This document shows positions 50,922 to 54,966 of a stretch of 64,000 nucleotides of DNA, piece after piece. The translations under genes were made by a program, and so were the position numbers. This DNA comes from Halosolutus gelatinilyticus. GTDB lineage: Archaea; Halobacteriota; Halobacteria; Halobacteriales; Natrialbaceae. Location of the stretch: NCBI RefSeq assembly GCF_023028105.1, contig NZ_CP095491.1, forward strand, positions 1,488,001 to 1,552,000, in the 5' to 3' direction. The notes under the pieces were generated by a model. That model was not told the origin of the DNA and made no database searches. It saw only the letters and a list, made by a program, of their open reading frames with translations. Position 1 is the stretch's first letter, and each line of letters starts with the position of its first letter.

Positions 50922-52685
50922 TCAATTCTCGAAACGGGCCTGGACGAACGGCTGGATGTCGTCGATATCGCTCAACCGGGAGTCCGAGAGCAGGACGGCC
51001 TCGGTCTCTTCGAGCGGAACCGAGAGGCTGATCTCCTTCGTTCGACCGTACCGCCCCTTCGAGACGACGATCGCGTTCACGATTCCGAGCATATCGAGTT
51101 CGCTGATGAGATCGGTGACGCGGCGCTGGGTCAGCACGTCGGCGTCGATCTCCTCGCAGAGGCGCTTGTAGATGTTGAACACCTCGCCCGTGTTGATGCT
51201 GTGGACGCCGTTCTTCTCGAGGAGGATGATCGCGAAAAGGACGAGTTTGCTCTGCGTCGGCAGGGTCCGGACGACCTCGACGACCCGGTCGAGTTCGATC
51301 TTGTCCTGGGCCTGCCGGACGTGTTCCTCGTCGATCGTCTCGGCCTGGGACCGCTCCGCGAGTTCGCCCGCCGTTCGAAGCAGATCGAGCGCGCGGCGCG
51401 CGTCCCCGTGTTCCTGCGCGGCGAACGCGGCGCACAGCGGGATCACGTCGTCGGACAGCGCACCTTCCTTGAACGCGACCTCCGATCGGTGCTGGAGGAT
51501 GTCCCGCAACTGGTTGGCGTCGTACGGCGGGAAGACGATCTCCTCTTCGCCCAGCGAGGACTTGACGCGCGGGTCGAGGAAGTCGGTGAACTTCAGATCG
51601 TTCGAGATGCCGATGATCGAGACGCGCGAGTTCTCGAGTTCGGAGTTCATCCGCGAGAGGTTGTAGAGCGTGTCGTCGCCGCTCTTCTCGACGAGTTTGT
51701 CGATCTCGTCGAGCATGATCACGACGACCCGCTCGTCGTAATCGACGGCGTCGAAGAACACGCTGTAGACCCGATCGGTCGGCCAACCGGTCATCGGCAC
51801 TTCCTCGAACGACTCCTCGTCGGCGCGCAGTTGGTCGATCCGGTCTTCGATCTCCGCACGCGAACCGAACGGCGTCGATTCCAGCGGATGGTCCGGCGGG
51901 AGCGTTCCACCGGCACCGATCGCGTCGCCGCGCGTTCCGTCGCCGGACGTCCCGCTGCCGCCCGTCGCGTCGCTACCCGGATCTCCGGTATCGAGTGCTG
52001 AATCAGACCCCCCTGTTTCAACTGCAGATTCGCCAGACTTGACGTCGAAGTTACCTCCAGCCGAAACCGAATCGTCGGGGTCGGAGCCGTCTCGATCGGA
52101 CGACAGACCAGCCGCCTCGTCGAAGAGATCGGACTGGGTAGTAGCCCGGTCGGCCGGTCGATCGTACTCCTCGAGCTTCTCGAGGAGCGATTCGAGTGTG
52201 TCGATCCGATCGGCGATCTGCGCCTCGTTTTTCTCGATGAACTTGTTCGCCAGCTGCGCGAGGACGCGGTACTGCGTGTCGGTTACCTCGCAGTTGATGT
52301 ACTCGACGTCGCAGGGAACGCTGTACTTCTGGGAGGTGCTCTCGAGTTCCTTGCTGACGAACTTGGCGCTCGCGGTCTTTCCGGTGCCGGTCTTCCCGTA
52401 GATGAGGATGTTCGACGGCGTTTCGCCGCGGAGGGCGGCGACGAGAATCGTCGCCATCTTGTTGATCTGGTCGCTACGGTGTGGCAGTTCGTGTGGCGTG
52501 TAGGACGGACGTAACACCTCCTTGTTCTCGAAGATCGGCTCCCCGCTGAGGAGGTCGTCGAACAACCCCTGATTCGAACTTTCGTCTTCGATATCGGAAT
52601 TCCCGAAATCAGTCGAAAAGCCGGCTGTTTCGTCGCGCTCGACGTTTACGTCGGTCCTGGTGGATTCCGTATTCTTGTCTGACAT
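50922..52685 (-). CDS. orc1: Orc1/Cdc6 replication initiator
   Basis: This 587-residue AAA+ initiator binds ORB elements and recruits the MCM helicase. Motifs are YGKTGTGKTASAKF (Walker A), VVIMLDEIDKL (Walker B), IIGISNDLKF (sensor 1) and a C-terminal winged helix (about 490-585; TGEVFNIYKRLCEEIDADVLTQRRVTDLISELDMLG). An unusually long acidic Gly/Ser/Asp-rich insertion (about residues 165-280) sits between the Walker motifs. An ORB-like DNA motif lies in the insertion codons at 52007-52027. The ATG at 52685 (MSDKNTES) is preferred over the in-frame ATG at 52700. It is adjacent to the origin. Confidence 0.97.
   Translation of the reverse strand: MSDKNTESTRTDVNVERDETAGFSTDFGNSDIEDESSNQGLFDDLLSGEPIFENKEVLRPSYTPHELPHRSDQINKMATILVAALRGETPSNILIYGKTGTGKTASAKFVSKELESTSQKYSVPCDVEYINCEVTDTQYRVLAQLANKFIEKNEAQIADRIDTLESLLEKLEEYDRPADRATTQSDLFDEAAGLSSDRDGSDPDDSVSAGGNFDVKSGESAVETGGSDSALDTGDPGSDATGGSGTSGDGTRGDAIGAGGTLPPDHPLESTPFGSRAEIEDRIDQLRADEESFEEVPMTGWPTDRVYSVFFDAVDYDERVVVIMLDEIDKLVEKSGDDTLYNLSRMNSELENSRVSIIGISNDLKFTDFLDPRVKSSLGEEEIVFPPYDANQLRDILQHRSEVAFKEGALSDDVIPLCAAFAAQEHGDARRALDLLRTAGELAERSQAETIDEEHVRQAQDKIELDRVVEVVRTLPTQSKLVLFAIILLEKNGVHSINTGEVFNIYKRLCEEIDADVLTQRRVTDLISELDMLGIVNAIVVSKGRYGRTKEISLSVPLEETEAVLLSDSRLSDIDDIQPFVQARFEN
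52007..52027 (-). repeat. ORB-like element inside orc1 (c)
   Basis: On the minus strand CTGCAGTTGAAACAGGGGGG. It encodes AVETGG within the low-complexity insertion of Orc1. Confidence 0.6.
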
Positions 52686-52698
52686 CCGTCGTACACGC

Positions 52699-52720
52699 AC
52701 CCCCTTATTTCGAGTGGAAC
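52699..52720 (-). repeat. ORB element next to orc1 (d), overlapping its likely TATA box
   Basis: On the minus strand GTTCCACTCGAAATAAGGGG followed by GT. The part AAATAAGG is TATA-like and lies 18-25 nt before the ATG at 52685, so initiator binding could control orc1 transcription. Confidence 0.72.
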
Positions 52721-53486: not shown

Positions 53487-53517
53487 AACCCCCCCACCCC
53501 TTCGTTTCAGGTGGAAC
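53487..53517 (-). repeat. ORB element flanking the unwinding core, left (e)
   Basis: On the minus strand GTTCCACCTGAAACGAAGGG, then G, T, and seven G. It is the longest G-string of the set, pointing away from the A+T-rich core. Confidence 0.85.
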
Positions 53518-53584
53518 GACCCGAGAGAGTGGACGGGATCGACGGATTATCGGACGGAAGGATTTATTTAGATGGGTGAGAAAC

Positions 53585-53700
53585 AGTATCCGTAGAACTA
53601 GCAAAACGCCATACATTACTAGGGTATTGTATTCAATTACTAGATTCTACTAGAATACTTGGATTAGACCGTTCACATTACTAGGACCGTCGCTTCTCCA
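53585..53700. other. A+T-rich duplex unwinding element with CTAG cluster
   Basis: The stretch 53613-53685 has about one third G+C by hand count, far below the rest of the window. It contains CATTACTAGG twice (53614-53623, 53676-53685) plus ATTACTAG and TCTACTAG. CTAG occurs five times (53598, 53619, 53640, 53650, 53681). It lies between two outward-facing ORBs, as expected for the site of first strand opening. Confidence 0.75.
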
Positions 53701-53808: not shown

Positions 53809-53835
53809 CTCCAGTTGAAACGAAGGGGTGGGGGT
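53809..53835 (+). repeat. ORB element flanking the unwinding core, right (f)
   Basis: CTCCAGTTGAAACGAAGGGG followed by TGGGGGT on the plus strand. The G-string points away from the core. Confidence 0.85.
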
Positions 53836-54094
53836 GTCCGAGAGCAGCAAGGCGAGTGCGACATTCTCTACCGATGTCCGAGTCGTTGACGGTCACAGCG
53901 GCAGCAATAATGACGATTCAGATCGCGACACTGATTGCTACGACGATGACGATCACTACGTCGTCCCGCGACGATCCCCGCCGATCGTTGGTCGACTGAT
54001 CGTATTCAACTGGTGGACTGACCGTATTCAATACTGGTTGCTATCCCCTGTCGTTGTCCGTCGTCCCCAAACCTGTCGTCTGTCACTCGGACAA

Positions 54095-54327: not shown

Positions 54328-54966
54328 ATGGGATTGTTCACAGAGCTCAAAGATAGTATCTCTCGGGTCACGGAACGCCTGTTCTCCGAACAGGAGCCCA
54401 AACGAATCGGTATCTATGGTCCGCCGAACGCCGGCAAGACGACGCTCGCGAACCGAATCGCCCGCGACTGGACTGGTGACGCTGTCGGGACGGAGAGTCA
54501 CATTCCACACGAAACGCGCCGCGCACGCCGGAAGGAAGGCGTCGAGATCGAACGGAACGGCAAGACGGTGACGATCGACATCGTCGACACGCCGGGCGTC
54601 ACGACGAAGGTCGATTACGAGGAGTTCACCGACGAGATGGAAGAAGACGACGCCATCCGCCGATCGCGAGAGGCGACCGAGGGCGTCGCCGAGGCGATGC
54701 ATTGGTTGCGGGAGGACGTCGACGGCGTCATCTACGTTCTGGACAGCGCAGAGGACCCGATCACGCAGGTCAACACGATGTTGATCGGGATCATCGAATC
54801 CCGCGATCTGCCGGTATTGATCTTCGCGAACAAGATCGACCTCGATGAATCGAGCGTCAAGCGGATCGAGGACGCCTTCCCGCAGCATAAGACGGTTCCG
54901 CTGTCGGCCAAGGAGGGCGAGAATATGGACGAAGTGTACGAGAGCATCGCGGAGTACTTCGGGTGA
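54328..54966 (+). CDS. oapA: Origin-associated GTPase OapA (Era-like)
   Basis: This 212-residue GTPase has IGIYGPPNAGKTTLANRI (G1), IVDTPGVTTK (G3), FANKIDL (G4) and LSAKEG (G5). It belongs to the archaeal Era-like group encoded next to haloarchaeal oriC1 and named origin-associated protein A. Its role in origin use or growth is only partly known. The ATG at 54328 has a Shine-Dalgarno GGAGGT 8 nt upstream. It is the first gene of a three-gene operon with very short overlaps. Confidence 0.9.
   Translation: MGLFTELKDSISRVTERLFSEQEPKRIGIYGPPNAGKTTLANRIARDWTGDAVGTESHIPHETRRARRKEGVEIERNGKTVTIDIVDTPGVTTKVDYEEFTDEMEEDDAIRRSREATEGVAEAMHWLREDVDGVIYVLDSAEDPITQVNTMLIGIIESRDLPVLIFANKIDLDESSVKRIEDAFPQHKTVPLSAKEGENMDEVYESIAEYFG

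Follow-up and report, generated by a model that had tools for sequence, protein, structure and literature searches.

Clusters of the tetramer CTAG upstream of orc1/cdc6 genes in Haloarchaea were described by Blow et al. 2016 (PMC4752239, Fig. 6D) in a search for motif clusters of orphan methyltransferases. Their occurrence correlated with that of an orphan m4C methyltransferase, a single genome often had them at several of its orc genes, and a role in replication control was proposed (PMC4752239). The core idea of the initial annotation of the locus analysed here, that methylation of clustered CTAG sites could time initiation, was therefore already in print.

Subsequent work identified HVO_0794 (zim) as the CTAG methyltransferase of H. 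volcanii, where CTAG enrichment was seen only near oriC2 and not near the other two of the three origins (Ouellette et al. 2018, PMC5867850). Removal of zim together with other restriction-modification genes gave no growth defect, and the origins themselves are not needed for efficient growth of this organism (PMC5867850). Because two of the three origins are unenriched and the cells grow without origins, the H. volcanii deletion is no test of the proposal. Across the class, the enzyme was reported in 174 of 217 haloarchaea, with CTAG underrepresented in all and a later acquisition of the gene inferred for some Halorubrum (Fullmer et al. 2019, PMC6471742), and measurements in a Natrinema pallidum strain showed m4C at CTAG (PMC12160562). 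In the E. coli system, the GATC pairs that SeqA prefers in vitro are separated by two to three integral turns of 10.4 bp (PMC5145175). A regulatory role for DNA methylation in archaea was proposed in 2016.

Results

The window, by which we mean the whole stretch of DNA analysed, comprises 64,000 nt of Halosolutus gelatinilyticus (NZ_CP095491.1, positions 1,488,001-1,552,000; GCF_023028105.1). The orc1/cdc6 initiator gene of oriC1 lies at 50922..52700 on the minus strand as a 592 aa ORF with a provisional start codon (Pfam Cdc6_C 4.6e-32, Cdc6_lid 2e-31), and its product has orthologs in 393 of 394 class members. Two origin recognition boxes (ORBs), each with a G-string, lie at 53488..53515 (left, minus strand) and 53810..53837 (right, plus strand) and form an inverted repeat of 28 nt that is 89% complementary. 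The ORB motif CCACCCCTTCGTTTC, found at 53494-53508 within the left ORB, is present in approximately 200 haloarchaeal orc1 loci. An MMR_HSR1-type GTPase gene (54328..54966, plus strand; Pfam MMR_HSR1 2.8e-14) occupies the opposite side of the origin; it stands beside oriC1 in most loci and served as the syntenic marker for the tree described below. The adjacent orc1/cdc6 gene and the inverted ORBs with G-strings around an AT-rich core, features that characterise a haloarchaeal oriC1, back the earlier assignment of this region as an origin.

Five CTAG sites start at 53598, 53619, 53640, 53650 and 53681, all between the inverted ORBs. Site 1 (GAACTAGCA, 53598..53601) is 89 bp from the left ORB and is found in 38 of 39 long Natrialbaceae cores. 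Site 2 (ATTACTAGG, 53619..53622) follows after 21 bp and occurs in all 39 cores in one of two registers that differ by a single base, while site 3 (ATTACTAGA, 53640..53643), a further 21 bp on, is also present in 39 of 39. Site 4 (TCTACTAGA, 53650..53653; 10 bp after site 3) and site 5 (ATTACTAGG, 53681..53684; 31 bp after site 4) each occur in 38 of 39. Directly to the left of site 1 lies a second conserved element, TTTAT ... AGAAACAGTATCCGTAG (53563..53597), which is possibly a mini-ORB or a promoter element; similar blocks (TTTTAT ... AACAGTAYCC) persist in methyltransferase-negative genomes that have lost the CTAGs.

The initial annotation had described five CTAGs in 87 bp of an A+T-rich core, lying partly in repeated sequence, in DNA otherwise poor in this tetramer, and each part of this description held. 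Exactly five sites fall within 53598-53684, in a stretch of 34% G+C (the window has 66.6%) that is also the most AT-rich part of the core, and ACATTACTAGG occurs as an exact repeat at 53613-53623 and 53675-53685. As judged from the 64-kb window and sampled flanks, CTAG is rare: dinucleotide shuffles predict 73.1 (sd 8.0) for the window, which holds 13, with just 8 in the ~63.6 kb outside the core. Inside the AT-rich core, 5 are observed against 1.3 expected from dinucleotide shuffles of the core. GATC, by comparison, does not cluster in the core of the window (3 observed, 2.8 expected), nor is it clustered in the sampled haloarchaeal cores.

Elsewhere in the 4.76-Mb genome only four further places were seen with at least 3 CTAG at start-to-start steps of no more than 34 bp. 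The only one with five is a 35-bp cluster, CTAGTAGTGTGACTAGACTAGCACTACTAGTCTAG, at C1:3441639-3441673, which lies ~0.8 kb upstream of a second chromosomal orc/cdc6 ORF; no oriC1-type ORB was recognised near it.

We took the region upstream of orc1 from 210 genomes and located the ORB-to-ORB core in 202, leaving four cores with doubtful ORB calls (G005, G045, G205, G243) out of the statistics. The initial annotation had named a lack of enrichment at orthologous origins as one way to refute its idea; over approximately 200 genomes, CTAG proved to be enriched in the methyltransferase-positive groups other than g30. In Natrialbaceae (family f1), all 45 cores hold at least 3 CTAG (mean 6.5), at 21.2 per kb against 0.69 in flanks and at 3.4 times the dinucleotide-shuffled expectation. 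Across the 39 long cores of this family the five sites of the window are kept in 192 of 195 cases while the spacers have diverged, giving a mean column identity of 92% for CTAG, 62% for the rest of the core and 95% for the ORBs.

Other methyltransferase-positive families show core CTAG at 1.6-3.5 times expectation, with the exception of a single f11 genome, whose core has none; most positive families fall at 2.0-3.5. The ratio of core to flank density is 31-fold in Natrialbaceae, 26-fold in family f3 and 17-fold in each of the other positive groups given, and CTAG ranks first of 136 tetramers by this measure in every methyltransferase-positive group except g30. In methyltransferase-negative groups CTAG is unremarkable and TATA leads; the 47 negative cores of family f4 carry 1.4 CTAG per kb (O/E 0.56), and 36 of them have none. 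Four f4 genomes of group g35 hold one CTAG in four cores. Natrinema pallidum, in which m4C at CTAG was measured, carries nine sites in its strain DSM 3751 (G034).

A scan of 257 Gb of GTDB sequence for the spaced array (20-21, 21-22, 10, 31) returned 44 matches. Thirty-five are from Natrialbaceae, all at oriC1 with an ORB at the expected distance, and 34 of these have both ORBs; the stretch of the remaining one (L276) ends before the left ORB. The other nine are bacterial and unrelated, mostly low-complexity 10-bp CCTAGG-like repeats.

Bacteroidales (Prevotella and relatives; L252, L256, L268, L270, L245, L253) carry CCTAGG-like units every 10-10.5 bp. At L256 and L270, for both of which ORFs were listed, these arrays are largely intergenic. 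As far as seen, none of the Bacteroidales arrays is related to dnaA. A viral scan with a shorter four-site array gave 64 matches.

The genome of the window encodes a 366 aa PF01555 protein with an SPPY motif (L035), which we assign, from similarity and the published family pattern, as a probable ortholog of the CTAG m4C methyltransferase (Zim/HVO_0794 type). No restriction gene is linked to it. A conserved gene partner was sought in 14 neighbourhoods and none was found, so the gene is solitary, which agrees with the earlier suggestion of an orphan CTAG-type enzyme. Orthologs were detected in 341 of 394 genomes; matches with an E-value >1e-30 were read as absent, and a few of the 341 therefore count as absent in our sample. 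Genomes without the enzyme are mostly in f4, chiefly in the large genus g30, which from its pattern we take to be Halorubrum. The methyltransferase-positive members of g30 (G072, G109, G112, G154, G171, G227, G336, G351) have one CTAG in eight oriC1 cores. The enzyme is thus not sufficient for the sites, and in g30 it must do, or have done, something else.

The association between enzyme and sites was evaluated on a tree built from the GTPase beside the origin and the gene that follows it. The tree covers 152 genomes, of which 35 are methyltransferase-negative, and the methyltransferase state changes eight times on it. Phylogenetic regression (PGLS) of CTAG on methyltransferase gives t = 3.8 and p = 2e-4 at the best-fit lambda (0.80), and a slope that is not significant at lambda 1 (p = 0.21). 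Well-supported branches provide only four independent pairs, in which the CTAG trait follows the enzyme in ~2.3 and opposes it in 0.1, numbers that do not suffice for significance. The direction of the association is consistent; its independence of ancestry is not proven.

The steps between sites in the window, 21, 21, 10 and 31 bp, are multiples of the helical repeat, a regularity that the initial annotation had overlooked. At 10.5 bp the window reaches a phase coherence of 0.97, with p = 0.0002 when periods of 10-11 are considered and p = 0.014 over any period of 5-20. Across the 39 Natrialbaceae genomes the five sites are separated by 20-22, 20-22, 10 and 31 bp, corresponding to 1-3 helical turns, and raw spacings peak at 10 (40 times), 20-22 (92) and 31 (30). 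Since the spacings are constant in raw, unaligned coordinates, an alignment artefact is ruled out. The mean phase coherence of the family is 0.69 against 0.32 expected, a figure that is descriptive only because the genomes are related. The sites are direct repeats with the directional consensus ~TTACTAGA.

Family f3 has nearly as many CTAGs, yet shows no phasing (coherence 0.27 against 0.35 expected), so phasing cannot be a general requirement and is rejected as a rule for all haloarchaea. Outside Natrialbaceae, the cores have in common no more than the CTAG palindrome itself, with a weak preference for A/T in the flanks and no shared spacing. CTAG is the general rule, and the phased array is its Natrialbaceae form. 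Relative to the array, the other TA steps are out of phase (mean cosine -0.29, where CTAG gives 0.86); generic TA-step phasing for bending or wrapping is thereby rejected, and bendability alone is not the conserved property.

No SeqA family member was found in the genome of the window, and a search of 60 relatives gave one marginal match, so that any reader of the sites would be another protein. The marginal match (G006, C1:1956470-1956655; E 3e-5, at the cut-off) lies in a Halorubrum-like genome with a Dam-type methyltransferase. We also considered a switch of motif to GATC in genomes that lack the CTAG enzyme and carry a Dam-type one; GATC there is at most mildly raised (O/E 1.25 by shuffles) and remains below its density in the flanks, and no clear switch is seen. 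In the f4 cores of methyltransferase-negative, Dam-positive genomes, GATC stands at 1.7 times the trinucleotide expectation against 0.9 times in flanks, a weak hint.

Discussion

Taken together, we favour the reading that the oriC1 unwinding region carries a selected array of methylation targets, served by the orphan CTAG N4-cytosine methyltransferase and marking the origin, to which we give a probability of about one half. The sequences establish the array and where it lies, its conservation, its specificity for CTAG and its tie to the methyltransferase. That the only other five-CTAG cluster in the genome is also adjacent to an orc gene counts in its favour. Against it count the loss of significance in PGLS at lambda 1, the CTAG-poor cores of g30 and g35, the lack of phasing in f3, the absence of a growth defect in H. 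volcanii (PMC5867850) and the lack of SeqA. Replication control by CTAG methylation is plausible, previously published and partly supported.

In such a scheme the five sites would be methylated in this organism, a reader would exist and the timing of initiation would come under their control. Most probably, the CTAG sites of oriC1 would be fully methylated ahead of replication and hemimethylated immediately afterwards; the methylation state would alter the way in which the core is engaged by a protein or by the Orc1-MCM machinery itself, and a fresh origin could thereby be told from an old one. Direct repeats of ~TTACTAGA on one helix face, 1, 2 or 3 turns apart, suggest cooperative binding by a CTAG-reading protein. 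More tentatively, and with some doubt, a putative archaeal SeqA-like protein in Natrialbaceae might read m4C-TAG pairs that are hemimethylated and lie on one face of the helix, and might sequester or license oriC1.

Chief among the rivals is a plain array of protein-binding sites: the CTAG repeats would be the central part of sites bound by an origin or nucleoid protein, with methylation incidental or secondary. The directional consensus and helical phasing in Natrialbaceae do resemble an iteron-type array, and a precedent exists in Sulfolobus, whose DUE motif (ucm) is the target of the nucleoid protein UBP and is indispensable for the origin to function (PMC12141716). We nonetheless regard this explanation as doubtful, given that the presence of sites tracks the CTAG methyltransferase and that beyond Natrialbaceae only a bare palindrome with weak flanks and no common spacing remains. 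The spacing rule also distinguishes a model with a protein reader from one based on melting, according to which m4C in the CTAGs would change the melting or flexibility of the unwinding region with no dedicated reader. N4-methylation slightly weakens base pairing, and the core is at its most AT-rich (34% G+C) where the sites lie between the ORBs; such a purely physical effect leaves the fixed spacing of one family unexplained, however, and the out-of-phase TA steps outside CTAG (-0.29 against 0.86) mean that what is conserved is something other than generic bendable steps. We consider it unlikely.

It is quite improbable that the array acts as a transcription operator, for orc1 or for a transcript through the origin, in which case methylation would regulate the supply of initiator and not the origin itself. 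The presence of a cluster upstream of the orc gene at each chromosomal locus, together with the TTTAT-containing conserved element that flanks the array, would suit an operator, but the array lies ~0.9 kb from the orc1 start, between the ORBs. A by-product of composition, whereby AT-rich non-coding DNA simply escapes CTAG avoidance, would fit the avoidance elsewhere in the window and the AT-richness of the core, yet equally AT-rich cores of methyltransferase-negative genomes are without such CTAG (O/E 0.56), and in Natrialbaceae the tetramer reaches 3.4 times dinucleotide expectation with sites conserved and spacers not. These results refute this explanation for Natrialbaceae and f3, and we give it very little credence overall.

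The locus shares its motif, its place, its methyltransferase association, the proposed role and the presence of clusters at several orc genes with the clusters of PMC4752239: the non-coding DNA ahead of orc1/cdc6 shows CTAG enrichment, and the presence of the cluster correlates with the methyltransferase, strongly overall and significantly at the best-fit lambda, but with only four well-supported independent pairs. That study measured density in 500-bp windows, and the word 'spacing' is absent from its main text. Our analysis adds site-by-site conservation, the fixed helical spacing in Natrialbaceae, the position within an ORB-flanked core and the finding that sites are missing from some methyltransferase-positive lineages. 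The fixed spacing and site-level conservation appear to be undescribed in the open-licence PubMed Central literature. A five-site array with fixed spacing, present family-wide and in genetically tractable members such as Natrinema, names the exact bases to mutate; for Natrinema sp. J7, shuttle vectors based on oriC are available (PMC5350488).

Comparison with other archaeal origins places the array in a familiar setting. The oriC1 of Haloarcula hispanica is likewise orc1-adjacent, with inverted ORBs and G-strings around an AT-rich region; its ORBs, G-strings and an inner G-rich repeat have been tested, and the portion of that paper considered here contains no test of CTAG sites (PMC3936714). 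Sulfolobus oriC1 also has a conserved short motif inside an ORB-flanked unwinding region, though in another lineage and as a single motif in several origins instead of a CTAG array, with no link to a methyltransferase found in the part of the source covered (PMC12141716). A bacterial parallel is E. coli oriC with Dam, where the origin is likewise densely set with palindromic target tetramers of an orphan methyltransferase. That system pairs GATC and m6A with SeqA, whereas the present one would pair CTAG with m4C; furthermore, the GATC sites of E. coli oriC are not phased by integral turns (PMC5145175), while the Natrialbaceae CTAG array is. If a SeqA-like reader of this kind exists in Natrialbaceae, archaea would possess an epigenetic replication switch independent of Dam and SeqA, built on an array better phased than that of E. 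coli.
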